Below are positions 1 through 39,696 of a DNA stretch of 64,000 nucleotides, piece by piece. Under the pieces are notes generated by a model. The model saw only the letters and a program-made list of their open reading frames with translations, did not search any database and was not told the origin of the DNA. Position 1 is the first letter of the stretch, and the number at the start of each line of letters is the position of its first letter. The stretch is from Bifidobacterium xylocopae (GTDB lineage Bacteria > Actinomycetota > Actinomycetes > Actinomycetales > Bifidobacteriaceae), in contig NZ_PDCH01000010.1 in assembly GCF_003315615.1 (NCBI RefSeq), forward strand, positions 1 through 64,000. Direction: 5' to 3'. A program made the position numbers and the translations under genes.

Positions 1-142
1 CGGGTGTTGTGTGCGGTAGTGGACTGTGGATCGTCGTGTGTGGTGGGTCGTCTTCTCTCTTATCTGGTCTTCAGGCGGGGCAGGAGGCGGCATACGAGTT
101 CAGCCTCGTTCTCGTGGGCTCGGAGATGTGTATAGGGGCCAG
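1..142. other. Illumina Nextera i7 adapter artefact at contig end
   Basis: Bases 109-134 match the Nextera read-2 transposase adapter with one mismatch at the first base, and 135-142 match its end (AGAGACAG) with A-to-G-type errors. Bases 101-108 are CAGCCTCG, which I recognise as the adapter form of a Nextera i7 index (N710). Bases 77-100 match the P7 primer (ending CGGCATACGAGAT) at about 18 of 24 positions. The order P7, index, transposon end is exactly that of a library molecule. Bases 1-76 are T/G-rich and look like read-through noise beyond P7. None of this should be annotated biologically; genome sequence probably starts near 143. Confidence 0.93.
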
Positions 143-468
143 GCCCCGGTTCGCCCATGGTGGAACATAGCCGTGGCCCGTAGGTAGGCCGGGGCCTGTA
201 CGGGGAAGGCGGCCGAGCGGGGTCGGGGAAAGTGTGCCATACTGGAGGAGTGGTGGTCCTGCATGGCCACCGTGAAGCGTAGGCGTCGATCCCCTTGCAT
301 GGATCGCTTCGTGCGAATGCAGGCGACGGTGTCCGTTTACGCCCCGGAAGACTTTTATGAAGGCGTCCAGACGATGCGCACGCAGTGCGCGGCCGCGGTG
401 AGAGCGCGGTGTGAGCAGTCGTCGCCGCCGTGAGCGCGACCCGGTGCAGCGCGTCGCAAGGAGCCATT
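143..468. other. Upstream region of rne, no gene seen
   Basis: This stretch lies between the adapter artefact and the RNase E start. Open frames through it on either strand are continuations of adapter-derived frames or antisense shadows of rne and resemble no protein I know. It presumably holds the rne promoter and 5' leader. RNase E leaders are often autoregulatory in other bacteria, but I see no specific element here that I can name. Confidence 0.5.
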
Positions 469-3414
469 GTGCCGAACAGAACACCAGAGGACAGCGCCGA
501 ACGCGAGTCCTCGCAGAACATCGAACATAGCGAGCAGGGCGAGAGCCAGAAAGCCGCCGGGAACGCGACCCGCCGCCGCAGGGGCGGACGCCGGGTGGTG
601 CGCGGGACCGGAGCTGCCGACGCACCGGTGCCGGTGCAGGTGGAGGCCAAGGAGAGGGAGCAGGTCCATACCCGGCGCCGTACACGCGCCGCCTCGACCG
701 CCGAGGATGCCGACACCCCCACCCCTACCGTGGATGGCGCCGATTCCGAGGGCGAGCGTAAGCCGGCCCGCAAGACCAGCCGCCGGCGCACCACCCGTGG
801 GCAGGCTGCCGCCTCCGGGGAGGGTGCCGCCAGCCGCAGCCGTGCACGCCGGTCCAGCCGATCCGGTGAGGCCGCCGCAGGCGAGACGGATGGCGAAGAC
901 AGCCGGGATCGCCGGTCCGAGGAGGCCGAGGAACGGCCCGTCCGCCGCAGGTCCGTCCGTCGCAAGGCAGGGGAGGAGACCGGTCGCAGCGGTCGCTCCG
1001 GGCGTGACGAGCAGGCCGAAGACGGGGGCGAGGATGAAGGCTCCGGCAGCCCCCGCAGGGGGCGTCACCGGGTGCAGTCAGGCCGCTCAGTCGGCACCCG
1101 CTCAGCCGGCGCGCGCAGCCGCCAGGCCCAGGAGGCCGACAGCGGCGAGGACAACGCCGATGCTGAAACCAAGGAGACCAAGCCCGCCAAGAGCGCACGG
1201 GGGAGGAGCGGCCGCACCCAGTCACCGGCCCGGCCCATGACCTCCCTGCTCTTCCAGGAGCCTGTCATCCCCGCCGCTGCCGTAGCCGAGGACGAGGCTG
1301 AGGAAGACGAGGAGGAGACGGGTTCCGGCCGCCACGCGCCCGCCCGCCGCAGCCGCGTCCGCAAGACCCGTTCGGGCGGCAACCATGCCGCTGAGCACGA
1401 CGACGCCGACGAACGCCGGGATGAGGACGGGGAGGAGCGCCCGCGCCGCCGCCGCAGGCTCAACGCCGAGGAACGCCGCGCCGCCGACGAGGTGGGGCAG
1501 ATCGAGCAGGACCTGCACGAGGACGACATCCGGTTCGTGAACGATGAGTCCGAGGAGGACGAGGAACCCAAACGCACACGCCGCCGCCGCAGGTCCCAGG
1601 ACAAGGATGAGGATGAACCCGCTTCCGAGCGCAGTGAGCGCGGCGGCCGCCGCCGCAAGCGCAAGGGCGAGGAAGCAGAGGAGGATGAGGGAGGCCTGAC
1701 CCGTCGCCGGCGCCGCCGCCGGGGGGCCAAGGACGCCGATGAGGAGCCGGCCCGCCGCTCCCGCCGCCAGCAGTACGTGGATGAGATCACCGACATTGAG
1801 GGGTCCACCCGCCTGGAGGCCAAGAAGCAGCGCCGGCGCGACAACCGCCGCGAGCGCAGCCGGCAGACCCAGCTGGTGGAGCAGGACTTCCTGGCCCGCC
1901 GTGAGAACGTGGACCGGCAGATGGTCGTGCGGGAGAAGGAGCACCACACCCAGGTGTCGGTGATCGAGGACGGGATCCTGGTGGAGCACTATGTCTCCGA
2001 CATCGACGAGGTCTCCTCCGTGGGCAACATCTACCTGGGGCGAGTGCAGAACGTGCTGCCGAGCATGGAGGCCGCGTTCGTGGACGTCGGGCAGGCCCGC
2101 AACGGCGTGCTGTACGCCGGCGAGGTCAACTGGGACGCCACCCGCCTGGAGGGGCAGCCGAGGAGGATCGAGCTGGCCTTCAAGTCCGGCGATCCGGTGC
2201 TGGTGCAGGTGACGAAGGACCCGATCGGGCACAAGGGCGCCCGTCTGACCGCGCAGATCACGCTGGCCGGGCGCTTCCTGGTCCTCGTGCCCTCCGGCGG
2301 CATGACCGGCGTCTCCCGCAAGCTGCCCGACAAGGAGCGCGCACGGCTCAAGTCCATTGTCTCCAGGATCGCGCCCAAGGACATGGGTGTGATCATCCGC
2401 ACCGCCGCCGAGGGAGCCTCCGAGGAGGCCATCGAGAAGGACCTGGGGAACCTGCAGCGGCAGTGGGAGGACGTGGAGGCCAAGCGCCAGGAGTTCTGGC
2501 ACGGCAAGCGCCCCAAGCTGCTCCAGGGTGAGCCCGACGTCGCCATCCGCGTGGTGCGGGACATCTTCAACGACGACTTCAACCGGTTGGTCGTGCAGGG
2601 TGAGCGCGTCTACGGGCACATCGAACATTATTTGGACACCATGGCCCCGGATCTGAAGGACAAGTTGGAGCGCTGGGATCCGGCCGAGCACCAGGGCAAG
2701 GACGTGTTCGACAAGTGGCAGATCGACAGCCAGCTGCGCAAGGGCATGGAGCGCCAGGTCTACCTGCCCTCCGGCGGCTCGTTGGTGATCGACCGCACCG
2801 AGGCCATGACCACGATCGACGTGAACACGGGCCGTTTCATCGGCAAAGGCAAGTCCCTGGAGGAGACCGTCACCCGCTGCAACCTGGAGGCGGCCGAGGA
2901 GATCGCCCGCCAGCTGCGTTTGCGTGACATCGGCGGCATGGTCATGATCGACTTCGTGGACATGGTGCTGCCCGCCAACCGCGACCTGGTCCTGCGCCGG
3001 CTGGTGGAATGCCTGGCGCGTGACCGCACCAAGCACCAGGTGGCCGAGGTCACGTCACTGGGGCTGGTGCAGATGACCCGCAAGCGCGTGGGCCAGGGCC
3101 TGGTCGAGGCCTTCTCCGAGGAGTGCCCGTCCTGCCATGGGCGCGGCTTCATCCTGCACGACCAGCCCACCATCTCGGCCAAGTACGACGACCCCTACGC
3201 GGTCAAGGGCGGCGATCCGTTCGTCAAGACCAACAAGCACGGGCATGGCTCCAAGGCTTCCAAGGAGGCGCCGGCGCCCAAGGGATCCTCCCCGGACGTG
3301 AAGGCGAAGCTGGCTCAGATCGCCGCCGCCGCCGAGAAGGCGTCCGAGGGGCAGGAGGACGAAGGCGCGGGTTCCCGGCTGGACGACCGGGATGATGTCG
3401 TCCAGGAGGCATAG
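469..3414 (+). CDS. rne: Ribonuclease E/G family endoribonuclease
   Basis: RNase E/G cleaves single-stranded RNA and acts in rRNA maturation and mRNA decay. The product is about 981 residues. Residues 1 to ~490 are a disordered region rich in Arg, Glu and Asp with many runs of 3-8 arginines. The catalytic part follows: an S1-like RNA-binding domain at ~495-620, the DNase I-like subdomain with acidic residues in TIDVNTGRFIG (~782) and MIDFVDM (~826), and the Zn-link CPSCHGRG (~886). A long N-terminal extension ahead of the catalytic core is typical of actinobacterial RNase E. GTG at 469 is preferred because AAGGAG lies 5 nt upstream; an in-frame GTG at 430 has no such site. It stands upstream of rplU, as is common in actinobacteria. 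Confidence 0.95.
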   Translation: MPNRTPEDSAERESSQNIEHSEQGESQKAAGNATRRRRGGRRVVRGTGAADAPVPVQVEAKEREQVHTRRRTRAASTAEDADTPTPTVDGADSEGERKPARKTSRRRTTRGQAAASGEGAASRSRARRSSRSGEAAAGETDGEDSRDRRSEEAEERPVRRRSVRRKAGEETGRSGRSGRDEQAEDGGEDEGSGSPRRGRHRVQSGRSVGTRSAGARSRQAQEADSGEDNADAETKETKPAKSARGRSGRTQSPARPMTSLLFQEPVIPAAAVAEDEAEEDEEETGSGRHAPARRSRVRKTRSGGNHAAEHDDADERRDEDGEERPRRRRRLNAEERRAADEVGQIEQDLHEDDIRFVNDESEEDEEPKRTRRRRRSQDKDEDEPASERSERGGRRRKRKGEEAEEDEGGLTRRRRRRRGAKDADEEPARRSRRQQYVDEITDIEGSTRLEAKKQRRRDNRRERSRQTQLVEQDFLARRENVDRQMVVREKEHHTQVSVIEDGILVEHYVSDIDEVSSVGNIYLGRVQNVLPSMEAAFVDVGQARNGVLYAGEVNWDATRLEGQPRRIELAFKSGDPVLVQVTKDPIGHKGARLTAQITLAGRFLVLVPSGGMTGVSRKLPDKERARLKSIVSRIAPKDMGVIIRTAAEGASEEAIEKDLGNLQRQWEDVEAKRQEFWHGKRPKLLQGEPDVAIRVVRDIFNDDFNRLVVQGERVYGHIEHYLDTMAPDLKDKLERWDPAEHQGKDVFDKWQIDSQLRKGMERQVYLPSGGSLVIDRTEAMTTIDVNTGRFIGKGKSLEETVTRCNLEAAEEIARQLRLRDIGGMVMIDFVDMVLPANRDLVLRRLVECLARDRTKHQVAEVTSLGLVQMTRKRVGQGLVEAFSEECPSCHGRGFILHDQPTISAKYDDPYAVKGGDPFVKTNKHGHGSKASKEAPAPKGSSPDVKAKLAQIAAAAEKASEGQEDEGAGSRLDDRDDVVQEA

Positions 3415-3909: not shown

Positions 3910-4161
3910 ATGGCACACAAGAAGGGCGCGTCCAGCTCGCGCAACGGTCGTGATTCCAACGCGCAGTACCTGGGTGTTAAGAAGTTCGGCGGCGAGTCCG
4001 TCGTCGCGGGCAACATCCTGGTCCGTCAGCGCGGCACCAAGTTCCACCCCGGCAGGAACGTCGGCCTGGGCAAGGACTTCACCCTGTTCGCCCTGACCGA
4101 CGGCAGCGTCAGGTTCGGCGTTCGCCGGGACCGTAAGGTCGTCGACGTCGTCTCGGACTGA
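3910..4161 (+). CDS. rpmA: 50S ribosomal protein L27
   Basis: An 83-residue L27 that starts [20 protein letters not shown] and contains the family core [20 protein letters not shown]. The N-terminus reaches the peptidyl-transferase centre, and there is no extra N-terminal propeptide of the kind cleaved in Firmicutes. It is cotranscribed with rplU and followed by a strong terminator at 4191. Confidence 0.98.
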
Positions 4162-4272: not shown

Positions 4273-5985
4273 ATGAGCGCATTCGTCGATCGCGTGACCG
4301 TCCACGTCAAAGGCGGGGACGGCGGCAACGGCGCCTCCTCGATCAAGCGGGAGAAGTACAAGCCACTGGCCGGCCCGGACGGCGGTGATGGCGGGGACGG
4401 CGGATCCGTGATCATGGTGGCCGACCCCAACGCCAACAGCCTGCTGGACTACCGGTTCGCCCCGCACCGCTCGGCGGGCGCGGGAACCATGGGCCTGGGC
4501 GGCGACAAGGACGGGTCCAGGGGCGCCGACCTGACGCTGCCGGTGCCCGTGGGTACGGTAGTCTTCGCCGCGGTGGGACGCGAGGGCGAGCCCAAGAAGC
4601 GGGGGGAGCGCCTGGCCGACCTGAACCATCCGGGTGACCGCTTCGTCGTGGCCCAAGGCGGCGCCGGTGGGCTCGGCAACCGCTCCCTGGCCAACAGGAC
4701 CCGGCGGGCGCCCGGCTTTGCGCTCCTGGGAGAGCCGGGCGAGGAACGCGACGTGATGTTGGAGCTCAAATCCATAGCCGACGTGGCCCTGGTCGGCTTC
4801 CCGTCGGCCGGGAAGTCCTCCCTGGTCGCGGCCATGAGCTCGGCCAAGCCCAAGATCGCCGACTACCCCTTCACCACCCTGGTGCCCAACCTGGGTGTGG
4901 TCCAGGCTGGGGCCGAGCGTTTCACCATGGCCGATGTGCCCGGCCTGATCCCCGGGGCGTCCCAGGGCAAGGGGCTTGGTTTGGAGTTTCTGCGCCACAT
5001 CGAACGCACCGAGGTCGTGGCCCATGTGATTGACTGCGCCACCCTGGAACCGGGCCGAGACCCCCTGAGCGACTACCGGGCCATCGAGGCCGAGCTGGCC
5101 CGATACGCCGACAGGCTTGAGCTGCCCCTAGGCGCAATCCCCATAGCCGAGCGCCCGCGGGTGATCGTCCTGAACAAGGCCGATGTGCCCGAAGCCCGGG
5201 AACTGGCCGAGTTCGTGCGTCCCGAGTTCGAACGGATGGGGCACCAGGTCTTCATCGTCTCCACGGCCTCGCACGCTGGGCTCAAGGAACTGGGCTTCCA
5301 CCTTGCGGAGCTCGTCGGACGCCTGCGGGCGCGTATAGAGGCCCAAGCGGCCGCCGAGGAGGAGGGGAGGGTCGTGATCCGCCCCCTGGAGGACCGGTCC
5401 CGGCGCCGTCGTCGCGACGATTTCACCGGCGCCTTCCATGTGGAGCGTCAGCAGGACCAGGCCGGCGGCCGCTGGTTCGTGGTCACCGGCGCCAAACCCG
5501 AGCGGTGGGTGCGCCAGACCAACTTCGACAATGACGAGGCCGTGGGCTACCTGGCCGACCGCCTGGCCAAGCTTGGCGTGGAGGACGAGCTGCGCAAGGT
5601 CGGTGCCCGGGCCGGTGACGAGGTGCGCATCGGGACGGGACGCGATCAGGTGGCCTTCGACTGGGATCCGACCATCGCCGCAGGCGCCGAGATGCTGGAC
5701 GGTACGCCGATGGCTTCGCGCGGCAAGGACCTGCGCCTGGAGGAGGTCGAGACCAGGACCCACCGGCGGACCAACAGCGAGCGGCGGGCCGAATACCACC
5801 GGATGATGGATGCCCGCCAGGCGGTGCGCCAGGCCATGGCCGCCGAACGTGAGGCCGGGCATTGGGCCGATCCGTCCGTGGACGACGACCCCGAGGATCG
5901 GGAGGGGCTGGTCGGCAAGGCCCTCCACGCCGGCCGGTCCGATGACGAGGACGGTGCGGCAGACGACAAGGCCGATAGGGGCTGA
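4273..5985 (+). CDS. obgE: GTPase Obg/CgtA (ribosome assembly)
   Basis: Obg is an essential GTPase in 50S subunit assembly and stress signalling. The 570-residue product starts [20 protein letters not shown] and has the glycine-rich Obg fold (1-~160). The G domain (~163-340) carries the P-loop [10 protein letters not shown], switch [18 protein letters not shown] and NKAD. The OCT domain (~375-450) contains [21 protein letters not shown]. After OCT there is a charged tail of roughly 120 residues ending in an acidic segment; such tails occur in actinobacterial Obg and are absent in E. coli. It sits between rpmA and proB as in many actinobacteria. Confidence 0.97.
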
Positions 5986-25300: not shown

Positions 25301-26995
25301 ATGAGTGCTGTACGAAGATTTGGCGCGTTGGCTGCTGCCGTATGTATGTGCTTGCTGGGTGTTGAGGCGAATCCCGTCTGGGCTGGGACGTTAAACGATA
25401 CGCTCGTTCCAGTAACGCAGGGCAGTCGAGCATTCACGTCGTCTGATTCTTCGGATGAGCGCTTGTCCGCAGATAAACTGCCGGATACGGTCTCTGACGC
25501 GATTCCCGATAGCGCGACATTGGTGTCCAAGGATCTCGCTGTCACCGATTCCGGTGAAGCCAAGGACGTCAAGACCGGGCGCACCGTCGCCGACTCCAAT
25601 GTGATAGGCACAGACAGCAAGCCCGCCGACCCGTTGGTCAAGACGGACGGCCGCTCCTTCATCCCCGCCCCGATGAGCGAAGTCAAAAGCCAGGCCAAGC
25701 AGCAGGTGGAAGGCAAGGATTCCGATTCCGCAGGCATAACTGGGCGTGAAGGATTCGCCAGACAGTCCACCTTGCGCGGCTTCGGTCATGACCAGGTCCG
25801 TGCCCGTACCGAGTCGGGACGGTACCTGGAAGCGGGAGGAACCCTCGGCCAGGGTACAAATGCTGCCCCCGTGCGGAGCGTGGCACTGCAAAGCAGCCAG
25901 TATGGGGCCCACTGGGGCACCTATAGCGGTACGCAGGCCTTCTTCCAGGCCGATGGCACCCTGTTCGCCCAGCAGGCCAAGGGCGTCGTCGATGTCTCCC
26001 AGTGGCAGGGCAACATCAACTGGGAGGCGGCCCGCAACTCGGGCGTCGAAGGCGCCATCATCCGCATCGGATACGGCTGGGGCAACGGCTTCGATACCCA
26101 AGCCATCCGCAATATCAATGAATGCAAGCGCCTGGGCATCCCCTTTGGCATCTACCTCTACTCCTACGCCTACGATGCCGGCACCGCCAGCGCAGAGGGG
26201 CGCGGGACCGTAGACCTCCTCAAAAGGGCGGGGATACGCCCTGCCGACCTGAGCTACCCGGTCTACTACGACCTCGAGCCCTGGGTGTGGAGAGGGCATG
26301 CACACCCGACCACCCCCGTCGTATACGACGGCATCGTGAACGCCTGGGACACCGAACTCCAGGCCGCCGGCTACCTCAACCTCTCCGTATACTCCTTCCC
26401 CTACTATCTGAACACGGCCCTCAACACGGGCGGTATACATTCGCGCACGAACTGGGTGGCCAGCTACGGCCCCACGCCGCTGTTTTCCTTCCCCAATAAC
26501 GATCGCTGCTGGCAGTATGCGAATAATGGGCAGGTGAAGGGCATATCCGGTAATGTGGATGTGAACGCCTGTGGGGTTGCAACCACCGCGTCCAATGGCG
26601 AGCTACACATTTACCGGGTCTACAACCCCAATTCCGGCGAACACTTCCTGACTTCCAATCCTGTCGAGTACCATCAGCTTTCCGCGCGGGGTTGGAACGC
26701 CGAGGGGGTAGCATGGGTGTCTCCTGCTGACGGTGCTCCTGTATACCGCTTGTACTCTCTGAACGAGGGATATCACCTATACACGATGAATAGCTATGAA
26801 TACAACGTACTTACGCGGTATAGGTGGCGTCAGGAAGGAATGAGCTGGCGGTCAGGCGGAGCCGTCCCTGTCTATCGTGTGTACAACCCCAACTCCGGCC
26901 AGCACCTCTTTACCATCAACAGTAATGAGCGCAATCATCTGGTTGGGCTTGGCTGGCGGAACGAAGGCACTGCGTGGTATGCGGCCCGTTACTGA
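25301..26995 (+). CDS. Secreted GH25 lysozyme with three C-terminal DUF5648-type repeats
   Basis: A 564-residue exported muramidase. It has a signal peptide (MSAVRRFGALAAAVCMCLLG), then a disordered Ser/Asp/Thr-rich stretch to ~225. The GH25 domain (~226-425) has GVVDVSQWQGNINWE with a catalytic Asp and the YYDLEPW acidic pair. Three ~45-residue repeats (~430-564) follow, each of the form YRVYNPNSGEHF / E-Y/R-N-x-L / GW-x-x-EG, the DUF5648 pattern. GH25 cleaves the MurNAc-GlcNAc bond; the repeats likely bind wall or surface glycan. The same repeats occur in the gene at 40931. Its stop overlaps the convergent gene by 7 bp. Confidence 0.9.
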   Translation: MSAVRRFGALAAAVCMCLLGVEANPVWAGTLNDTLVPVTQGSRAFTSSDSSDERLSADKLPDTVSDAIPDSATLVSKDLAVTDSGEAKDVKTGRTVADSNVIGTDSKPADPLVKTDGRSFIPAPMSEVKSQAKQQVEGKDSDSAGITGREGFARQSTLRGFGHDQVRARTESGRYLEAGGTLGQGTNAAPVRSVALQSSQYGAHWGTYSGTQAFFQADGTLFAQQAKGVVDVSQWQGNINWEAARNSGVEGAIIRIGYGWGNGFDTQAIRNINECKRLGIPFGIYLYSYAYDAGTASAEGRGTVDLLKRAGIRPADLSYPVYYDLEPWVWRGHAHPTTPVVYDGIVNAWDTELQAAGYLNLSVYSFPYYLNTALNTGGIHSRTNWVASYGPTPLFSFPNNDRCWQYANNGQVKGISGNVDVNACGVATTASNGELHIYRVYNPNSGEHFLTSNPVEYHQLSARGWNAEGVAWVSPADGAPVYRLYSLNEGYHLYTMNSYEYNVLTRYRWRQEGMSWRSGGAVPVYRVYNPNSGQHLFTINSNERNHLVGLGWRNEGTAWYAARY

Positions 26996-28830
26996 GATCT
27001 TTGGTCATGTAAGCTAACGGCTTCTTGAGGTGGGGAAAGCCTGTTTGCTTGGTACTCTTTCAATCGAGCGAACAGGCTTTCCCAATAATGGCCGTCGCTG
27101 CAAAATGCACCTAAGCCAAGAATGAGTCCGATTGCCACAAATGGCGTAAGCAAACCTGCGGTGTAAAAGAACTGTACATAGGTGTTCTTCAAATATTGGG
27201 CATACCACATGGCGAAGAAGGCATAGGCATATGCATAGAGGAAAAGGCATAGGCTGAGAGCGGTGAAGGCTGGCCGAATCCACTTACGGTGGTGCAGGTC
27301 GCGCACGCAGCAGAACAGATTAATCAGCAGCACTATCAGCAGCAGTATATTCACGATCATATAGATGGTCACTACGGTACTTGCTACTTCCTGGGCATTG
27401 TGGTAGGAAAATAGGGGAAAGATTCGCGGGTTGGGGTTGCGGGGATCAATGTTCAGCTGTTGGAGCCCGCGTTTATTGACGATATTGTACTTGCCGGTTG
27501 CGGGTATGTTGACATTGTGGGAAACCTGGTAGTACCTCTGCAACGTAAAAGTATCAGAGAACACATCCGAGGCCGGATCGAATAACTCGATGATTTCGTG
27601 TTTGCTTCGAGGCACCAGAGATGAAGAGACTGAAATCTTATCGGTTTTGGTTAAACTGCCATCGGAAAAAGCAGCATCGATTTCCATGTTGACCTTACGG
27701 AAAAACTGCTGTACAGCGTTTTCGTCTTCCATGCCGATAGTTTCGTCGATTGCAGCCAGCATCTGCCATGAAATGTAGTCACCGGTCAGGGGCTTGACCA
27801 GAATGTCAGGTGCGGCAAAATCACTATGGGTAACGTAGTCGATGATGCCGGGCTGGGTTTGCAAGGTCGGGGAGGCTTTCTCCGCAGCGACTATGGAGTC
27901 AGCCGGTGACCAGATTTCAGGTGTTTGGTGGAGACTCTTGATTTTGTATATGCGGGAGATGAATCCAGCGATTTCACCGGTTGTTCTGGTATTGAGCATG
28001 TGGACGCCGAAGTTCCGAGCATTGTATGACTTTATGGCCTCCAGGCCTGAGTATGCACTGATCAGGGGCAGCAGACACAGGGACGCCGCGAGTGTTTTTC
28101 GTATGATATCCGAATGGCTGCGCACAACTGTGATGACTTTCAAAGATAGAACGAAGATGAACATGGGGACCAGCCAGATCGAGTCCTCTTTCATGTCATA
28201 AATTATTGTGAACACAAGACCGAGAACACAGTAGAAGCAACCCATTCCCAGCCAGGCCAGTATCTGTGCAGCTGTAAGGCCGGGGGTGGAGCCATGAACG
28301 CATTTGGACTTTGGGGGTGTGGAGGTCAGGAAAAGCATAAGCAGGGCAAGAAGGATGAACAAGGTTGGTGCAAAAATTGAATTACGATATACCCTGGTGC
28401 CTTGCCAATTTTCGAAAGCCAGTGGATTCCATAGGACATATATATAAGTGGACAAAGCCAGCCAGGTGCGGTGGAAGAAGCGATAGGTGGCGAAAGCTAC
28501 AAGTACTGCCGCCAGGAACCATAACAGAAAATAAACTGTGTCAATATTGATGCGGCTCCAGCCGACAGCGCGCAGAAACCAGCCATACCCTTGATTTTTG
28601 GCGAGTTTATAACGGTCGGACGAATTCGGATATTCCGGGAATGAGTAACTCATCAGGAGGGCGTCATCGGCACGCTGGGTGAACGGGTACCACATATGTA
28701 AAGTCAGGGACATGACGAGGCGTCCGGCTGTAATTGCAACAAGCGCCATAGCGATTATAAACCGCAGAGCTTGCCTAGTTTTAGGAAAGTGTTTAAAACT
28801 TATGATGGTTATGGTCGCAATCGAGGTCAT
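26989..28830 (-). CDS. GT-C-like polytopic membrane protein, A/T-rich
   Basis: A 613-residue protein with about 11 spans. The first is followed by an extracellular loop with QRADDALLMSYSFPEYPN, a D/E-bearing loop placed as in GT-C transferases. A central extracellular domain (~290-480) is followed by three further spans. I do not recognise the exact family. Codon use (many AAA, ATT, TTT, ATA) is clearly more A/T-rich than the housekeeping genes, a sign of recent transfer. The gene is divergent from the GT2 at 28937, a pairing typical of polyprenyl-phosphate sugar donor plus GT-C acceptor enzyme. No strong ribosome binding site is seen, so the start is uncertain. Confidence 0.7.
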   Translation of the reverse strand: MTSIATITIISFKHFPKTRQALRFIIAMALVAITAGRLVMSLTLHMWYPFTQRADDALLMSYSFPEYPNSSDRYKLAKNQGYGWFLRAVGWSRINIDTVYFLLWFLAAVLVAFATYRFFHRTWLALSTYIYVLWNPLAFENWQGTRVYRNSIFAPTLFILLALLMLFLTSTPPKSKCVHGSTPGLTAAQILAWLGMGCFYCVLGLVFTIIYDMKEDSIWLVPMFIFVLSLKVITVVRSHSDIIRKTLAASLCLLPLISAYSGLEAIKSYNARNFGVHMLNTRTTGEIAGFISRIYKIKSLHQTPEIWSPADSIVAAEKASPTLQTQPGIIDYVTHSDFAAPDILVKPLTGDYISWQMLAAIDETIGMEDENAVQQFFRKVNMEIDAAFSDGSLTKTDKISVSSSLVPRSKHEIIELFDPASDVFSDTFTLQRYYQVSHNVNIPATGKYNIVNKRGLQQLNIDPRNPNPRIFPLFSYHNAQEVASTVVTIYMIVNILLLIVLLINLFCCVRDLHHRKWIRPAFTALSLCLFLYAYAYAFFAMWYAQYLKNTYVQFFYTAGLLTPFVAIGLILGLGAFCSDGHYWESLFARLKEYQANRLSPPQEAVSLHDQRSQ

Positions 28831-28936
28831 GACAGCATGTTAACCTAACGGCGATAGTTTACAGACTTGGTATAGTTCGTATTGTTGCATTAGTTTAAGA
28901 ACCCTCTGTCATACAGAGCGTGGAAAAGGAATGGCG

Positions 28937-29653
28937 ATGGCTCTCAGAGGGAAGTCCGTATCTCTGGTGATGCCGTGCCGCAATGAGGGTAAGCACCTGA
29001 GCGGTTTAATCAGGAAGATTGTTTCACCCCCCTCCCCCCAGGACTTTGATGAGATAATCTGCGTCAGCAATTGTTCCACGGACAACACCTTGGAGGTAGG
29101 AGCAGTGCTCGAGAAGGAAATTCCGTGCTTCCGAATGCTTCAAGATGACAGAGCCATAGGTGGTATCGGTTATGGCTATGCACATATGACTGGTATCGCT
29201 GCAGCGACTGGAGAAATAATTGTATGTGCTGATTGTGACGGGACCTATCCTGTAGAGGATGTGGCGCTTATTGTCGACATCATGGATAAGCAGGGCCTGT
29301 CTTTTGTCTCCTGTTGCAGATACCCCGATTCTGGAATCGCGCCTATGCTCCAACTCGGGGTGAAGTTGCTGAATGCAGAGATTCGTCTGTTATATGGGTA
29401 CAGGATCCAGGATTCGCTTTCCGGCATGTGGGTATTCAAAAAGTCTGTGGTACCCGATTTGCGCTTAAGCGCAGGAGACTGGAACCTCTCTCCACAAATT
29501 AAGCTTAATGCGTTCTCCGTTTTGGGTAAGAAGGCTGCTGAAGTCAAGATTCATCAGCTTAAGCGTTATGGGCAGACCAAGCAAAACTATGTACGCACTG
29601 GTCTAGGCCATGCTTGGTGGATTGCCAAAAATCGTTTTGCATCTTCACGATGA
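28937..29653 (+). CDS. Family 2 glycosyltransferase (polyprenyl-phosphate type)
   Basis: A 238-residue soluble GT-A enzyme resembling dolichyl-phosphate mannosyltransferase. It has SLVMPCRNEGKHLSGLIRKI at the N-terminus, the nucleotide-sugar DxD in CADCDGTYP (~95) and the second conserved element QDSLSGMWVFKKSVVPDL (~158). No membrane spans follow, so the product would be loaded onto undecaprenyl phosphate at the membrane surface. ATG at 28937 is favoured because AAAAGGA lies 6 nt upstream, whereas ATG at 28931 abuts it. The gene shares the lower GC of its divergent neighbour. Confidence 0.85.
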   Translation: MALRGKSVSLVMPCRNEGKHLSGLIRKIVSPPSPQDFDEIICVSNCSTDNTLEVGAVLEKEIPCFRMLQDDRAIGGIGYGYAHMTGIAAATGEIIVCADCDGTYPVEDVALIVDIMDKQGLSFVSCCRYPDSGIAPMLQLGVKLLNAEIRLLYGYRIQDSLSGMWVFKKSVVPDLRLSAGDWNLSPQIKLNAFSVLGKKAAEVKIHQLKRYGQTKQNYVRTGLGHAWWIAKNRFASSR

Positions 29654-29786
29654 CGAGTTCCATTCATCAGAAATTCTGGAACGGTCCGGGTTCCGGGTGA
29701 ACTGACGTCGCTCGATACTTAGTGCACAGGTTGCCAATCACAAGTGTTTCTGGGCCGGTAACGGTTGGGCGGTATTAATGTCGTGA

Positions 29787-30845
<1,059 letters not shown>

Positions 30846-30907
30846 TCGGGCATCGCCCGAGTCCTGTATGCGAGTGTGCAGCAACCAGTTAGGGGAATAA
30901 GGAAGAT

Positions 30908-32365
30908 ATGACTTTCGATTTTGAAAAGGACCTGCGGGTCGAGCGGACCAACATCCCTGGTCTGCTGGTCTTCGACCTGCCGGTCCACGGCGACAACCGC
31001 GGTTGGTTCAAGGAGAACTGGCAGCGGGCCAAGATGACGGCCCTTGGGCTTCCGGATTTCGGTCCGGTGCAGAACAACATCTCCTTCAACGCCAAGAAAG
31101 GCGTGACCCGGGGTATACACGCCGAACCCTGGGACAAGTACATTTCCATCGCCTCGGGTGAGATCTTCGGCGCCTGGGTCGATCTACGGCCGGGTGAGAG
31201 TTTCGGTCAGGTATACACCACCCGGCTGGACCCTTCCAAGGCCATCTACGTGCCCCGAGGCGTAGGCAACAGCTTCCAGGCCCTCCAGGACGGCACGGTG
31301 TACACCTACTTGGTCAACGCCCACTGGTCCCTGGAGCAGAAGAAGACGTACACCTTCGTCAACCTGGCCGATCCCGAATTGGGTATCGAGTGGCCGATTC
31401 CCCTGGGGGAGAGCGAGCGCAGTGAGGCCGACCTCCACCATCCCATGCTCAAGGAGGCCAAGCCCATGGCCCCCAAACGGACTTTGGTGACCGGCGCGCG
31501 CGGACAGCTGGGTCAGGCGCTCAGGCGGTATGTCGAGGTTCACGGGCTCGAAGGATTCGAGTTCGAGGACATCGACGGGTTCGACTTCTCGGATCCGGCT
31601 GCATACGACAGGTTCGATTGGAGCCTGTATGGGACCATCATCAACGCCGGTGCCTATACGGCTGTGGACAAGGCTGAAACCAAGCAGGGACGTCGGGCGG
31701 CATGGAAGGCCAACGCCCAGGGGCCGGCCCTCTTGGCCCGGGTCGCCAGTGAGCATCAGCTGACCCTGGTGCACATCTCCAGCGACTACGTCTTAGATGG
31801 CAGCGAAGAGGAACACCGCGAGGATGAGCCCTTCGCCCCGCTTAGTGTGTACGGGCAGACCAAAGCAGCGGGCGACATCGCCGTGGCCGATGCTCCCCGG
31901 CACTACATCCTGCGCTCCAGCTGGGTGATCGGCAAAGGGCATAACTTCGTCAAGACCATGATGGGTCTGTCGAATCGTGTCGCCGATCCGGCCGACAATC
32001 TCGCCCAGGTGACCGTGGTCGATGATCAGTATGGTCGGCTCACCTTCACCGATGACATGGCGGAGGCGATTTTCCACCTGCTCGATACGCGTGCGCCATA
32101 TGGCATCTACAACCTGACCGGTTCCGGGGCCGTGAAATCCTGGGCGGATATCGCCAAAAGCGTGTTCGATCAGACGAACGGCAACGGGGACAAGGTCCTG
32201 CCGGTCTCAACCCGGGAGTACTACGCCAGTGCCGACGGTCCGATCGCCCCCCGGCCCACCTACAGCGCGCTGAATCTGGACAGAATCGAAGCGGTCGGTT
32301 ACCGGCCGGCGGATTGGGAGGATAGCTTGGCGGCGTATGTGACCGCCGCCGGCAGGGAAGCATAA
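30908..32365 (+). CDS. rmlCD: Fused dTDP-4-keto-rhamnose 3,5-epimerase / reductase (RmlC-RmlD)
   Basis: A bifunctional 485-residue enzyme completing dTDP-rhamnose synthesis. Residues 1-~185 are the RmlC cupin, with GDNRGWFKENW and the catalytic His in TRGIHAEPWDKY. Residues ~193-485 are the RmlD reductase, with VTGARGQLGQALR, HISSDYVLDG and YGQTKAAGD (YxxxK). Separate genes are usual in other phyla, whereas this fusion is known in Bifidobacterium. The start follows AAGGA. It lies 62 bp after rmlB and 120 bp before rmlA. Confidence 0.95.
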   Translation: MTFDFEKDLRVERTNIPGLLVFDLPVHGDNRGWFKENWQRAKMTALGLPDFGPVQNNISFNAKKGVTRGIHAEPWDKYISIASGEIFGAWVDLRPGESFGQVYTTRLDPSKAIYVPRGVGNSFQALQDGTVYTYLVNAHWSLEQKKTYTFVNLADPELGIEWPIPLGESERSEADLHHPMLKEAKPMAPKRTLVTGARGQLGQALRRYVEVHGLEGFEFEDIDGFDFSDPAAYDRFDWSLYGTIINAGAYTAVDKAETKQGRRAAWKANAQGPALLARVASEHQLTLVHISSDYVLDGSEEEHREDEPFAPLSVYGQTKAAGDIAVADAPRHYILRSSWVIGKGHNFVKTMMGLSNRVADPADNLAQVTVVDDQYGRLTFTDDMAEAIFHLLDTRAPYGIYNLTGSGAVKSWADIAKSVFDQTNGNGDKVLPVSTREYYASADGPIAPRPTYSALNLDRIEAVGYRPADWEDSLAAYVTAAGREA

Positions 32366-32485
32366 GCCGCTAGGCGGATGCGGGGAAACGGAGGAGAAAG
32401 TGCCCAATCCCCGTATCGGCCGCTCAGTGCGACTAGGTTGTATACGTCTTGACCATAGTGATGTGAAAGGCAGGTGGCTCAAGCC

Positions 32486-33385
32486 ATGAAGGGAATCATA
32501 CTTGCGGGGGGGTCGGGCACGAGGCTTTACCCTCTGACCACAGTCACTTCCAAGCAGCTGCTGCCGGTCTACGACAAGCCGATGATCTACTATCCGCTCA
32601 GCGTGCTGATGATGGCCGGCATCCGCGACATCCTGATCATCTCCACCCCGCATGATCTGCCCAACTTCGAGCGACTCCTGGGCGACGGCTCGCAGTACGG
32701 TGTCAGCTTTTCCTACAAGGTGCAGCCCAGCCCTGATGGTCTGGCCCAAGCTTTCATTCTGGGGGAGAGTTTCATAGAGGGTGAGCCCTGCGCCTTGGTT
32801 CTGGGCGACAACATCTTCTTCGGCAACGGACTGGGGCGTACCCTACGCAAGGCGGCCCAAGTCGGTCGGGGCGCCACCGTCTTCGGCTATTACGTCGACG
32901 ATCCCGAACGCTATGGCGTTGTCGAGTTCGATGATAGGCACCGGGCGATATCCATTCATGAAAAACCTGCACATCCGGCGAGCAATTATGCGGTGACCGG
33001 CCTGTATCTCTATGACAACAGAGTCACTGACTTTGCCAAGCAGGTCCAACCGTCGCCCAGGGGTGAATTGGAGATCACCGATTTGAACCGCATGTATCTG
33101 GAAGACGGCAGCCTGAACGTCCAGACGCTGGGGCGTGGTTACGCATGGTTGGATACCGGTACCATGGATTCGCTGTTTGAAGCGGGTGAGTTCGTCCGCA
33201 CTGTGCAGCGGGCGCAGGGGCTGCCCATTGCGGTCGCCGAGGAAATCGCCTTCGAAAACGGGTGGATTACCCGTGAGCAGCTGCTCTGCGCGGCGGAAAA
33301 ATTCGGCAAATCACCTTACGGTCAGCATCTGCGTGATGTGGCCAACAATAAAATATTGCTCAAGACTTATACTGTGGGCGATTAA
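32486..33385 (+). CDS. rmlA: Glucose-1-phosphate thymidylyltransferase
   Basis: Makes dTDP-glucose from dTTP and glucose 1-phosphate, the entry step to dTDP-rhamnose. The 299-residue product begins [18 protein letters not shown] with the nucleotide-binding [11 protein letters not shown] loop, and contains LGDNIFFG and [18 protein letters not shown]. It matches the short (RfbA) form. ATG at 32486, with AGGTGG upstream, gives the family start; GTG at 32474 is an alternative. It is the last sugar-nucleotide gene before the exporter. Confidence 0.97.
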
Positions 33386-33444
33386 CTGCTTTAAGCCTGT
33401 CCTGGTAATATTTGTGAGTCGTTTGCCTATAGTAGGAGCCGTCG

Positions 33445-34272
33445 TTGGAAATCGCAGAGGTCTTTACCAAAAAGAATCGTCTGTTGCTCAGAGCAATGGT
33501 TAGCACTGATTTTAAACTACGCTACCAGCAGTCGGTTCTGGGGCATTTATGGTCGGTTCTGAAGCCTCTGCTGCTGTTTTCAGTCATGTATGTGGTCTTC
33601 ATCCGCTTTCTGCGGTTCGGGGCTGATGTGCCTCATTTCGCTGTTTCCCTATTGCTGGGTACAATTCTGTGGAACTTTTTCAATGAGACGACCACCGGCG
33701 GCATGATGTCGATTGTCGGCCATGGTGATCTCCTGAGGAAGATTCATTTCTCGAAGTATGTAGTAGTCATCGCCTCTTCCATGAGCGCTCTGATCAACTT
33801 CGGCTTCAATTTTGTTGTGGTCGTCATCTTCGCCTTGGTGAATGGGGTCCGGCCATCATGGTCGAACCTCTTGATTTTCCCGATAGTGTTGCAGCTGTAT
33901 GTGCTGGGACTTGGCATTGCTTTCTTTCTGGCTGCGATTTACGTGAACCTGCGCGACCTCAACCCGATTTGGGAAGTGGTCATGCAGGCAGGTTTCTATG
34001 CCACTCCCATCATCTATCCCATCAGTATGATTTCCAGTAGGGCCGGCGCCTATGGCCCTTTGTTGGCCAAGCTTGACCTGATGCTCAACCCTATGGCCCA
34101 GATTATCCAAGATGCCCGGCACGTACTGATAACCCCGGCTAATCCCACACTGTGGCAGTGGGAGAGCAACTTCTTTTTGGCTTGCTGGCCGGTGATGGTC
34201 ACCATTCTGATATTCCTTGGTGGCGTCTGGTATTTCACGACTAAGTCACAGTATTTCGCGGAGCTGATTTAA
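33445..34272 (+). CDS. wzm: Polysaccharide ABC exporter permease (Wzm/RgpC-like)
   Basis: The membrane subunit of an ABC-2 exporter for a lipid-linked polysaccharide. It is 275 residues with six spans and the family N-terminus TDFKLRYQQSVLGHLWSVLKP, split as TDFKLRYQQSVLG and HLWSVLKPL, which forms the gate helix. TTG at 33445 is supported by GGAG 6 nt upstream. Its stop is immediately followed by the start of the ATPase gene at 34273, so the two are translationally coupled. Substrate is inferred to be a rhamnose-containing chain from the rml genes upstream. Confidence 0.93.
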   Translation: MEIAEVFTKKNRLLLRAMVSTDFKLRYQQSVLGHLWSVLKPLLLFSVMYVVFIRFLRFGADVPHFAVSLLLGTILWNFFNETTTGGMMSIVGHGDLLRKIHFSKYVVVIASSMSALINFGFNFVVVVIFALVNGVRPSWSNLLIFPIVLQLYVLGLGIAFFLAAIYVNLRDLNPIWEVVMQAGFYATPIIYPISMISSRAGAYGPLLAKLDLMLNPMAQIIQDARHVLITPANPTLWQWESNFFLACWPVMVTILIFLGGVWYFTTKSQYFAELI

Positions 34273-35502
34273 GTGAAGATGAGCATCAATTCGAAGCAGG
34301 AGTTGCCTGACAACGTCGCTTTACGGGTGAGCCATGTCTCCAAGGACTTCCGTTTGCCGACCGAACGGGTCAGCAGCCTGAAGGGAGCCCTCTTTAATGT
34401 ATTGCGTCATAACAAAACTGGTTTCACCACGCAGCATGTGCTCAAGGACATCTCCTTCGAAATCAAAAAGGGCGACTTTTTCGGTATTGTCGGCAAGAAC
34501 GGCTCGGGCAAATCGACCCTCCTGAAAATCATCTCCCAGATTTATTCGCCGAACCAGGGTACGGTCGAGGTCAACGGTAAGCTCGTTCCCTTCATTGAGC
34601 TGGGTGTCGGTTTCAACCCTGAGCTCACCGGCCGGGAAAATGTCTACCTGAACGGTGCCATGCTGGGCTTTACCAAGTCAGAAATTGATGGTATGTACGA
34701 CGATATCGTCGATTTCGCGGAAATCGGCGACTTCATGGAACAGAAGCTCAAGAACTACTCTTCCGGCATGCAGGTACGTTTGGCTTTTTCAGTGGCCATC
34801 AAATCCCAGGGTGACATTCTCGTCCTGGATGAGGTTCTGGCCGTTGGTGATGAAGCTTTCCAGAAAAAGTGCCAGGATTACTTCTTCCAGGCTAAGCGTG
34901 AAAAGAAAACCGTCATTCTGGTCACCCACTCCATGGCTGATGTGCGCCGTTTCTGTAACAAGGCCATGCTGATCCAGGATGGTGTCATCGCGGAATTCGG
35001 TTCCCCCAATGAGGTCGCGGATGCATACTCCGGCTCTTTCGCTGAGCAGGAGGGTAAGCAACTGGAGAAGGAGAACGAAGCTATCAGACTGGAACTCGGC
35101 GATGGTGTCAGACTGACTGATGTGGAGACGCAGGTGGAAGGAGTGAAGAACATCCAGCTCGCTATCAACCAGGACTTCTCTCTGGCTTTTTCCTTCGAAT
35201 GTGACCATGATATTGAGGACGGAGTGCTCTCCTTCAGCCTGATAGACGGACAAGGGCGGCTGAGCCTGGCTATGGCAAGCACGTTAGATGGTGAAAAGAG
35301 GGTTTTTACTAAGGGTGAGCATCGGATGGTCTTCGACATCGAGAACATCTTCGCCTCCGGCGACTACCGCGTCGATGCCGCCATAGAATCCGGCGAGAAG
35401 ATGCTGTTCAAACAGATTGGCATCTACCAATTCCAAATCAGGAATGCGCTGCGATTCGATGAGAGTATGACCCACCCCAGGATCAGCATGACATTGCAGT
35501 GA
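34273..35502 (+). CDS. wzt: Polysaccharide ABC exporter ATPase with C-terminal binding domain (Wzt-like)
   Basis: A 409-residue ATPase. The nucleotide-binding domain (~1-250) has Walker A VGKNGSGKSTL, the signature YSSGMQVRLAFS and Walker B ILVLDEVLAVGD. Residues ~265-409 form a beta-rich domain such as binds the polymer terminus in Wzt and related exporters, which suggests recognition of a chain end. GTG at 34273 follows the permease stop directly, with GGAG 9 nt upstream; an ATG two codons later is an alternative. Confidence 0.93.
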   Translation: MKMSINSKQELPDNVALRVSHVSKDFRLPTERVSSLKGALFNVLRHNKTGFTTQHVLKDISFEIKKGDFFGIVGKNGSGKSTLLKIISQIYSPNQGTVEVNGKLVPFIELGVGFNPELTGRENVYLNGAMLGFTKSEIDGMYDDIVDFAEIGDFMEQKLKNYSSGMQVRLAFSVAIKSQGDILVLDEVLAVGDEAFQKKCQDYFFQAKREKKTVILVTHSMADVRRFCNKAMLIQDGVIAEFGSPNEVADAYSGSFAEQEGKQLEKENEAIRLELGDGVRLTDVETQVEGVKNIQLAINQDFSLAFSFECDHDIEDGVLSFSLIDGQGRLSLAMASTLDGEKRVFTKGEHRMVFDIENIFASGDYRVDAAIESGEKMLFKQIGIYQFQIRNALRFDESMTHPRISMTLQ

Positions 35503-35592
35503 CTTCGGGCGCTGTTGCACCTGCCCTTCAGGCATGTGCCGCCAGATCAGCGCCGCTCACAGATTAACAGTTCATACGAGTGAGGTCGGGCT

Positions 35593-38500
35593 TTGGAGCT
35601 TATCAAGAACGAGAAATGCCACATCGAGATAGACAGCGTCATTGAAAGTCGCAGTGGGGCAGACCCGGTACGGATTATATCGGGATGGGCCGTGGATACT
35701 TCCGCCAGAAAGGCCCTCGACTTCAGCGTTCGTAGCGAGGGTGCCGAGATCAAGCGTAGCTGCCGGGGCGATCTCACCAGCATGCTCGGTCTGGATACGG
35801 GTGCCAAAGCAGGCTTCACCATCACCTTGCCTGCGTGCTGCCGGACGTTGATTATCCACCTCTCCCAGGATGGAGAGGCCATCAGCAGGACGGTTGGTAT
35901 CGATGAGTTGGTGGCCGGGCTCGGCAAGGACTTCAGGCGCAAGCGAAGCAAAGAGCGGATGCGCTACCTGACTCATGCCGGGACACCCTCCGGTTTTAGG
36001 GCCCTCAAAGCAGCCGCCAAGCGGCGCGTGTCCCCTGAGCAGGACCATTACCAGGAGTGGATTGCTCAACACGAAGTGCTGTCTGAGCCCGCTGCCGTCG
36101 CTCAGTTGGGAGGCTTCAGCAAGCGCCCCTTGATTTCGATCGTTATCCCTGTATATGACGTGGAAGAGAAGTGGCTGCGTAAATGCGTGGCGTCGATACA
36201 GGCCCAGTGGTATTCCAAGTGGCAACTATGCCTGGCCGACGACCATTCACACTCGGAGCATGTGCGCCCCCTGCTAGAGGAACTGGCTGCAAGTGACGAG
36301 CGTATCAAGGTCGTGTTCCGCGAGGAGAATGGCGGCATATCGGCAGCCACGAATTCGGCCCTGACCGAGGCCTCCGGTGATTACATCGGGTTCATGGACA
36401 ACGACGACGAGTTGGCTCCGAATGCCCTCTTCCACGTGGTCCAGGTCCTGAACGAGGATCCGACCATCGACCTCATCTACACTGACGAGGACAAGATGAG
36501 CGAGGACGGGGTCCGCTTCGACCCCTTTTTCAAGCCCGGTTTCTCGCCTGACCTCTTACTTGCCCACAACTACATCACTCATTTTGTGGTTGTTTCCAAG
36601 GAGCTACTGGCCAAGGTGGGGCCCCTGCGTCCGGAGTTTGACGGTAGCCAGGATTATGACTTCGTCCTGCGAGCGACCGAGCGGGCCGTGCGAATCCACC
36701 ATATCGGTAGGATCCTCTACCACTGGCGTACGCTGGCGTCTTCGGTGGCTGGTGATCCGACTAGCAAGATGTACGCTTACGAAGCGGGGCGCAAGGCCCT
36801 GGAGGCGGCCCTGGAACGGCGGCAGCTGGCCGGCTCGGTGCAGATGCAAGACAACCTGGGCACCTATAAGATTGAGTACGAAGGCAAGTTGCCATCGATC
36901 GCCGTCCTGGCCTCCTCATACAGCGCTGGGCGTCTGCGAAAGCTTCAGGAGTCGACTCAATATCCTGATGTGGCGTTCGTGCCCGTCACGGAGGAAACAC
37001 TCAATCAGGTGGCCCAGGAGCGTGGCGAGGATAAGTTGGTGTTTCTGGACGGTCTTCTGCCTAAGGACCCCTCCTGGTTGCTGGAGATGGTCAATGCCAG
37101 CCGTGGCGCCGGCGTGGGCGTCGTCGGAGGGAAGATCTTCGACCGCCACGATCGGGTCGTCAACGTTGGCATCACCCTGCGGGCCTTGCGTGGGCATGAG
37201 CCCTTCGAAATGCGGGGGCAGACAGACCAAGGCATAGGGTATTATTTCCGCGACATTCTGCCCCGGGATATGTTCGCTGTGACAGAGGACTGCATGCTGG
37301 TCGATCGCAAGGTTTTCGTGACCTTGGGGGGGTTCAATGAGCAACTGGCGGCAGGGATCAGGGGGGTTGACTTCTCCCAGAGGGTGCTCCGCCAGGTAGG
37401 GGGCAGGCCTCTATGGCAACCATATTCCGTGTTTGTGGATACGAAACGTCACCCGCTCATCATGTTGCGGCCTATGATTTTCCAATATCTGAGGCAGCAC
37501 AAGGACCTGAGCGATCCTTTTGCCTCGGTGTGCTTCCCTCCGAATATGGACCAGGAGGCCTATATTGAGGCGGCTATAGACGAGGTCACCGGCTCATCGG
37601 ATGGCAAGAACGTGGTGGTCTCAGGCTGGGCCGTCGATATGCAAGCAGATGAAGAGGTCAACATCGGGTTGGCGGATTCGTCCGTAGCAACACTTGATAA
37701 AGTCAAGCGCCTCTCTCGACCTGACGTAAACCGAATGTTTCCTGTTCCGGCCGATGCCCGCCTAGGTTTTGAAGCATCGATATCACTGGCTGTCGGTGAG
37801 GAAGGGCCGTCCGCTCAGTTGCCTGTCCTGCTGGTCTCAACATCCCAAGATCGGGAAAAGCTAAGTTACCCTCGGCAGCAAGGCAAGGAGTATGGTAAAC
37901 TGAAGGATATTCTGCGTAAAATAGCTCTCCTGCGCCATCCGAGGAGCACGCTGAAGCGGCTGATTGACAAGTATATTTCACCCCGCCTGCAAAAGCATGA
38001 CTACCGAAAGCTGATACACCGTACAGAGCGTTATCAGCTGTCGGCCGTAAAGGCGGACATTAATTCGTTTGCTTGGCAGCCCTTGATTTCTTTGCTGGTA
38101 CCGGTCTACAATGTCGATGCCACCTGGCTTAAAGCTTGCGTGGACTCCATTAAGAGCCAGTACTACGATAACTGGCAGCTGTGTCTGGCGGATGACCACT
38201 CCTCGCAGCCGCATGTCAAGCCGCTGCTGGAGGAACTGGCAGCCAGTGATGAGCGGATTACAGTGGTCTTCCGCCAGGAAAACGGTCACATCTCCAGGGC
38301 CACCAATTCCGCGTTGGAAGTCGCTGAGGGAGATTTCGTTGGTCTTCTGGACAACGATGATGAGCTGGCCCCACAGGCTTTGTACGAGATGGTCAAATGT
38401 CTAAATGAGCACCCCGACACCGACCTGATCTACAGTGACGAAGACAAGATTGACGAGCGCGGATGCCGTACCGATCCACATTTTAAGCCGGACTACGCCC

Positions 38501-39690
38501 CCGACCTTCTCCTGAGCACCAACTACATCAGTCACTTCGGGCTCTATCGAACGTCAATCGTGCGGGAGATTGGCGGATTCCGGGTGGGCTATGAGGGCTC
38601 CCAGGACTACGATTTGGTCTTGCGCTTTACCGAATGCACCGATTCCCGCAGAATTAGGCACATTGCAAAGGTGCTCTACCATTGGCGTACTCTGCCGACA
38701 TCCACAGCCTCCTCCGGCAGTGCCAAGGACTACGCTTCCGATGCGGGCCTACGGGCCTTGCAAGCGGCCATGGAGCGGAGAAGGATACCGGCGGAAGTGG
38801 TCTCCGAGGGTCCTGCGGGTATCTATGATGTTCATTATCAAGTGAACGACCCCGCCCTGGTCTCGGTCATCATTCCGACTAAGAACGGCTACGACAACGT
38901 CAAGCGTTGCATGGACTCCCTCATTGAGCGCACCGATTACCCTAATTACGAAGTCATTATCGCGGACAACGGCAGTAGCAATCCGCACATGTGGGACCTC
39001 TACCGGGAGTATGAGGGGAAGCTGGGAGAGCGTTTCCGGGCTGAGAAGATTGACATCCCCTTCAACTTCTCACTAATTAACAACATAGCCGCCGCGAAGG
39101 CCAAGGGCAAGTACCTGCTCTTCCTCAACGACGACACGGAAGTCATCAGCGCCTCTTGGATGACCCGCATGGTCTCGTTTGCCCAACTGGATCGGGTGGG
39201 AGTGGTGGGTGCCAAACTCTATTATCCTGATGAGACCATACAGCACGCCGGTATTGTCCTTGGTATGGGCGGGCCTGCAGGACACATCATGATCGGGTCG
39301 CCTAGGAGCTATCTGGGCTATTTCGGGCGGTTGGTGGAAAATGTCAACTACTCAGCGGTCACCGCAGCCTGCTGCATGGTCAAGGCCGAGGACTTCGAAG
39401 CCGTCGGTGGTTTCGATGCGGACCTGGCGGTGGCCTATAACGATGTGGACCTGTGCTTGCGGGTTTCCCAGCAGCTCGGCCGTGATAACGTTTGGGCGCA
39501 TGAAGCTGAACTCTACCATTACGAGTCGGTCACCCGCGGCTACGACACCACGAGCAAGGAGAAGAAAGAACGGCTGACACGGGAGGCCGAAGCCTTCAAA
39601 TCCCGCTACAGTGCATTGATTGAGGACGACCCCTACTACAACCCCAACCTCTCACGGACATCAGGGAACTTCTGGGTGCGCAAGTGGTGA
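35593..39690 (+). CDS. Giant multidomain glycosyltransferase, internal duplication
   Basis: 1365 residues built as two copies of one unit. Each has a GWAVD domain (~10-105; ~658-735), a basic linker, a GT2 domain with ISIVIPVYDVEEKWL (~181) or ISLLVPVYNVDATWL (~832), MDNDDE (268) or LDNDDE (919), then a second GT half. In copy 1 that half (~435-620) has FLDGLLPKDPSW where copy 2 (~1088-1315) has FLNDDTEVISASW, and lacks the HYES motif, so it is probably inactive. Three active GT2 domains are thus predicted. There are no membrane spans. It probably polymerises the exported glycan, like RgpF-type enzymes. TTG at 35593 follows GAGG. Confidence 0.9.
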   Translation: MELIKNEKCHIEIDSVIESRSGADPVRIISGWAVDTSARKALDFSVRSEGAEIKRSCRGDLTSMLGLDTGAKAGFTITLPACCRTLIIHLSQDGEAISRTVGIDELVAGLGKDFRRKRSKERMRYLTHAGTPSGFRALKAAAKRRVSPEQDHYQEWIAQHEVLSEPAAVAQLGGFSKRPLISIVIPVYDVEEKWLRKCVASIQAQWYSKWQLCLADDHSHSEHVRPLLEELAASDERIKVVFREENGGISAATNSALTEASGDYIGFMDNDDELAPNALFHVVQVLNEDPTIDLIYTDEDKMSEDGVRFDPFFKPGFSPDLLLAHNYITHFVVVSKELLAKVGPLRPEFDGSQDYDFVLRATERAVRIHHIGRILYHWRTLASSVAGDPTSKMYAYEAGRKALEAALERRQLAGSVQMQDNLGTYKIEYEGKLPSIAVLASSYSAGRLRKLQESTQYPDVAFVPVTEETLNQVAQERGEDKLVFLDGLLPKDPSWLLEMVNASRGAGVGVVGGKIFDRHDRVVNVGITLRALRGHEPFEMRGQTDQGIGYYFRDILPRDMFAVTEDCMLVDRKVFVTLGGFNEQLAAGIRGVDFSQRVLRQVGGRPLWQPYSVFVDTKRHPLIMLRPMIFQYLRQHKDLSDPFASVCFPPNMDQEAYIEAAIDEVTGSSDGKNVVVSGWAVDMQADEEVNIGLADSSVATLDKVKRLSRPDVNRMFPVPADARLGFEASISLAVGEEGPSAQLPVLLVSTSQDREKLSYPRQQGKEYGKLKDILRKIALLRHPRSTLKRLIDKYISPRLQKHDYRKLIHRTERYQLSAVKADINSFAWQPLISLLVPVYNVDATWLKACVDSIKSQYYDNWQLCLADDHSSQPHVKPLLEELAASDERITVVFRQENGHISRATNSALEVAEGDFVGLLDNDDELAPQALYEMVKCLNEHPDTDLIYSDEDKIDERGCRTDPHFKPDYAPDLLLSTNYISHFGLYRTSIVREIGGFRVGYEGSQDYDLVLRFTECTDSRRIRHIAKVLYHWRTLPTSTASSGSAKDYASDAGLRALQAAMERRRIPAEVVSEGPAGIYDVHYQVNDPALVSVIIPTKNGYDNVKRCMDSLIERTDYPNYEVIIADNGSSNPHMWDLYREYEGKLGERFRAEKIDIPFNFSLINNIAAAKAKGKYLLFLNDDTEVISASWMTRMVSFAQLDRVGVVGAKLYYPDETIQHAGIVLGMGGPAGHIMIGSPRSYLGYFGRLVENVNYSAVTAACCMVKAEDFEAVGGFDADLAVAYNDVDLCLRVSQQLGRDNVWAHEAELYHYESVTRGYDTTSKEKKERLTREAEAFKSRYSALIEDDPYYNPNLSRTSGNFWVRKW

Positions 39691-39696
39691 GTGCGC

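Follow-up and report, generated by a model that had tools for sequence, protein, structure and literature searches.

The DNA analysed here, referred to as the window, is a stretch of 64,000 bases from Bifidobacterium xylocopae which corresponds to positions 1-64000 of a contig of 65,911 bases (C2), one of the 98 contigs of a 1.85 Mb assembly; base 1 of the window is the true start of this contig. The first real gene of C2 encodes RNase E/G (469..3414, + strand), with the whole catalytic domain present (PF10150, E 4.8e-96, profile positions 1-270 of 270). Its start is likely the GTG at 469, which lies behind an AAGGAG at 458-463. Downstream it is followed by the genes of ribosomal proteins L21 and L27 and of an Obg GTPase. 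Upstream lie a conserved leader (approximately 232-465) and a -10-like hexamer, CATACT (238..243, + strand), of which ATACT is present in 20/20 aligned sequences and the first C in 16/20; no promoter was detected when 140-600 was scanned with the sigma-70 consensus. Both of these features are situated outside the adapter-derived bases described below. Farther into the window, G+C content is 0.54 and 0.49 in the 26-30 kb region and 0.53-0.60 up to 40 kb, compared with 0.60-0.71 elsewhere, and positions 26000-40000 are a possible acquired segment.

Positions 77-142 align without gaps, on the + strand, to P7, an 8-base index, GTCTCGTGGGCTCGG and a 19-base mosaic end, and they do so at the very edge of the contig. 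This bears out the initial annotation, which had described an untrimmed Nextera adapter with an i7 index at this edge, its P7, index and transposase end in the right order. Read outward from the chromosome, the Tn5 mosaic end (124..142) agrees at 16/19 bases with the reference sequence, the read-2 part GTCTCGTGGGCTCGG (109..123) agrees at 14/15, the i7 index CAGCCTCG (101..108) at 8/8 and the P7 flow-cell sequence (77..100) at 18/24. The index is N710, the other 11 of the 12 indices on the list differing from it at four or more bases. The P7 oligonucleotide is given in Table 1 of PMC7580199, the available text of which also supplies the first six mosaic-end letters (AGATGT) after the read-2 part, while the read-2 part and the N710 oligonucleotide are found in the corresponding text of PMC7757419. 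The oligonucleotide with this index is printed under the name N710 in the latter and as Ad2.10 (ATAC-seq) in Table 1 of the former; the C2 edge is identical to it in part order and index, and differs from it by 10 substitutions within the 58 fixed bases. On the + strand, A to G accounts for six of these mismatches, in agreement with the A-to-G-like errors noted earlier. By part and outward, mismatches number 3/19, 1/15, 0/8 and 6/24, with no simple outward increase in rate.

It had also been proposed that the contig start be aligned to Nextera adapter sequences. In an ungapped scan of both strands of the whole 64 kb with the index masked, the site at 77-142 scored 48/58 fixed bases, and the runner-up site for the P7-side adapter scored 31/58. 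Top scores in 20 mononucleotide shuffles of the window were 29-32 of 58. A chance likeness of GC-rich bacterial sequence to the adapter could draw on the 10/58 mismatched bases; this explanation is refuted by the distance between 48 and the shuffle maximum of 32, and by the exact match to N710, which lies outside that score, leaving it a probability next to nil.

Other contig edges of the assembly carry the same kind of sequence. The survey took up to 500 bases from the start of each of the 98 contigs and the final 500 from the 45 that exceed this length, giving 143 stretches, of which 54 were readable (27 starts and 27 ends); 89 stretches belonged to contigs reading as N and were left out. 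With index-masked queries, Nextera adapter was found above the null (maximum of 16 over 4,320 mononucleotide-shuffled tests) at 7/54 readable edges, facing outward in all seven cases. The P7 side is present at the starts of C2 and C89, and the P5 side at the starts of C1 and C56 and at the ends of C56, C45 and C19. An eighth edge, the C6 start, only equals the null maximum (16) with the index masked and reaches 22 with the index included. The same library is seen on these edges: both P7 edges are nearest to N710 (0 and 1 mismatches) and four of the five P5 edges are nearest to S508 (0, 1, 2 and 3 mismatches). At the C45 end the index is closer to S502 (2 mismatches) than to S508 (3), a slight point against a single library.

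These edges also bear on a second explanation, namely that the C2 start is the end of a genuine Tn5-type (IS50) transposon, or a tagged insertion engineered into the chromosome. The mosaic end is derived from Tn5, and this speaks for the idea. At C2, however, a catalogue i7 index and P7 are attached to the mosaic end, and we know of no natural element that carries these. Furthermore, the P5-side adapter is present on other contigs (C1, C56, C45 and C19), and all seven clear copies in the assembly are at contig edges. Beyond the mosaic end, where transposon sequence within the replicon was looked for, come the index and P7, then 76 bases of no recognisable kind, and then the edge of the contig. 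A natural transposon end was rejected on account of the attached catalogue index and P7 and the outward-facing copies at contig edges, and the explanation as a whole is considered exceedingly improbable.

The adapter is also present in public collections. An exact 25-mer (window 110-134) was searched in genome_contigs and viral_contigs, and was present in at least 120 stretches of each. Among the matches listed, 128/129 in genome_contigs and 122/123 in viral_contigs were outward-facing and no more than 250 bases from the locus edge (median distances of 14 and 18 bases, respectively); many of the listed genome_contigs records come from one run series (SRR3933...) and are not independent. For all 250 of these 252 listed matches, checking against contig ranges showed the locus edge to be a contig edge. 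Exact flanks allowed 98 index read-outs among the matches listed, comprising 13 distinct 8-mers, with N710 occurring six times; all 13 are indices printed in the available text of PMC7580199 or PMC7757419. The 25-mer was also observed inside two contigs, at 3944-3968 of locus L066 (Crenarchaeota MAG) and at 4961-4985 of locus L210 (viral contig), and these are possibly adapter-mediated misjoins. A comparable case has been described by Moeller et al. 2024 (PMC11536531), in which remnants of the Illumina universal adapter were concentrated at contig extremities of MGnify genomes. Both cases represent adapter at contig ends of microbial genomes, going by the available text of that paper, in which the word Nextera is absent. 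C2 differs from it in carrying the P7 side of Nextera with a full index, in having errors at 10 bases and in having a long outer tail that is unreadable.

The initial annotation had assigned the first ~142 bases to a library artefact. This was supported as a whole, although recognisable adapter extends over 77-142 only and positions 1-76 resemble nothing. This outer tail (1..76, no strand assigned) lies outside the P7 end and the placed adapter, and 57 of its 76 bases are A or C when read outward. At C2, 109 bases lie outside the 25-mer, a depth equalled or exceeded in 2/250 of the listed public edge matches. The tail could be genuine bacterial DNA that a chimeric or misassembled path has connected with the adapter, and the two of 252 listed public matches that fall inside contigs indicate that adapter may join two real sequences. 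Against this, window 1-200 gave no second match in its own genome (E up to 0.001) other than that of its adapter part to the C89 adapter, and none of the 38 related genomes searched gave a match within window 1-201. In addition, the tail follows P7 outward, at the place where a read-through ends, and the seven other adapter edges (C6 start included) likewise have bases outside the aligned adapter, the range over all eight edges being 53-198 per edge. Part of these outer bases may be adapter too degraded to align. From these searches of the own genome and 38 relatives, and from its position, a chimeric origin of the tail is regarded as very unlikely, and bases 1-76 are best read as base calls made past the end of the library molecule, beyond P7. 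An A/C-rich tail was rejected as a general mark of reading past the template, as the tails at other edges differ. Neither is a single type of error claimed to lie behind the mismatches, as the gained bases differ between edges: in read direction C predominates among them at C2, C89, C19 and C6, G is the main or sole gain at C45, and C1 and C56 show a mixture.

On the chromosomal side of the adapter, matches somewhere in window 1-900 were obtained for 26 of the 38 related genomes. The match of the closest relative (G023) begins at 202 and those of most others of the genus at 229-233, while a six-sequence alignment with relatives is convincing from approximately 225 onward. Relatives align unconvincingly to the stretch between the adapter and the first shared sequence (143..225, + strand), the only own-genome match within 1-200 being the C89 adapter. 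This stretch may be genuine species-specific intergenic DNA or degraded sequence.

Taken on its sequence, the start of C2 (bases 1-142) is almost certainly leftover Nextera adapter and unreadable bases rather than bacterial DNA, derived from a short library fragment that was sequenced through. Such a fragment, bearing i7 N710 and probably i5 S508 opposite, would have been sequenced end to end. A single read would leave the genomic insert at about base 143, pass through the transposase end, the index and P7 (from 142 to 77) and run on after the molecule had ended (from 76 to 1). With the adapter left untrimmed in the reads, and if coverage stopped at this point, the assembly graph would have a dead end with no competing path, and the assembler would keep the tail as the end of the contig. 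Counting against this reading are the 10/58 mismatches that lack a simple outward rise, the unusual length of the tail, the index at the C45 end that is nearer to S502, and the A/C-rich composition of the tail, in which not all other edges agree.

The artefact is of a well-known, harmless and ordinary kind, with nothing novel about it. Positions 1-142 should be trimmed, and at least seven edges of the assembly are affected. The translations IHISEPTR and YTHLRAH, which had been pointed out as products of the adapter, were indeed found in minus-strand frames 71-685 and 60-965. Among the papers listed by a literature search on these translations and the index, only the index letters were matched, and neither peptide. 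No protein calls should be made on the evidence of minus-strand ORFs that cross the adapter (60-965, 71-685 and 100-300). For contig ends that carry the universal adapter, the available text of PMC11536531 gives a blanket trim of 450 bases. If applied to the C2 start, such a trim would remove most of the real leader of the RNase E/G gene.

This leader (approximately 232-465, + strand; 250..463, model match at 250-353) is defined by alignment and covariation and, on these grounds, is taken to be a genuine feature separate from the adapter artefact. The window aligns here with 19 relatives at a mean column identity of 75%, and the consensus fold has 49 pairs, 21 of which have changed on both sides. 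Over 46 pairs in 18 distinct rows, 96.5% of cells pair. The covariation score was 0.376 versus 0.230 in shuffles (0/500 reaching it), and at most 0.111 with slid partners; the count of further pair types was not significant (54/500 shuffles reaching it). Derivation of the structure from this very alignment works in its favour. The window leader alone is not unusually stable (z-score +0.47, with 126/200 shuffles folding at least as well), so the evidence for the leader is one of covariation and not of energy.

A covariance model was built from the first 102 positions with 20 training sequences. It matched 130/151 genomes of the family (the 20 training genomes included), each with a single match spanning the whole model, in 10 of 16 genera. 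RNase E/G was found in 148/151 of these genomes; 18 have the gene without a leader match, and most of the 18 belong to a few genera with small or fragmented genomes. In 128/130 cases the match lies on the same strand and contig as the RNase E/G domain, 1,460-3,247 bases upstream of it, and in the other two the leader and the domain are on different contigs. Among 17 matches, 10 of them from genomes outside the training alignment, 98.4% of cells paired and the covariation score was 0.448 versus 0.232, in an alignment fitted to the model. Under stricter filters, which lose weak matches, the model was found in 13/198 genomes of the order, all 13 from the same family, and in 1/296 genomes of the phylum, this being the window's own.

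Rfam gave no match at E values up to 1 in window 140-700, and in six loci its single hit was below the gathering score and not at the leader. The stem-loop leader of E. coli RNase E carries the Rfam name rne5. The leader described here differs from the known Rfam RNase E leaders, rne5 and rne-II, in that no covariance-model match to them was found; rne-II is listed for Pseudomonadales in the available text of PMC2864571. Among the papers listed in a literature search, no title or abstract opening describes a leader of such a kind for the host family. Genome size, G+C, gene order and an XFP phosphoketolase, a hit also obtained in 3 of 14 controls, point to Bifidobacteriaceae as the probable identity of that family. 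It is fairly probable that the leader is a structured RNA outside Rfam, seen in one actinobacterial family only and placed upstream of RNase E/G, which would let this enzyme sense and limit its own synthesis in the manner of the E. coli RNase E stem-loop leader, without matching its model. A role as an RNase E/G feedback element is likely.

Several further features of the assembly were observed at contig termini. Eleven pairs of termini overlap by exactly 127 bases, with an identity of 100% in eight pairs and of 98.4-99.2% in three. Overlaps of this length are the mark of a de Bruijn assembly with k=127, and an assembly of this type implies reads well over 127 bases. This speaks for the read-through origin of the C2 start, as a fragment shorter than its read is sequenced into the adapter and beyond. 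The start and end of contig G000:C8 (35,849 bases) share exactly 127 bases at 100% identity, by which C8 is probably a circular molecule. A scan of eight proteins from its first 20 kb showed RepA-like, ParA-like, cell-surface antigen I/II-like and Abi_2 proteins among them, and C8 is probably a plasmid. To find the gene upstream of rne, an RCC1-repeat gene of the relative G023 was used as a query; it had 43 matches in the genome under study and did not identify that neighbour. Several of these matches are at contig edges (e.g. C2:65660-65908), and RCC1 repeats probably fragment the assembly.
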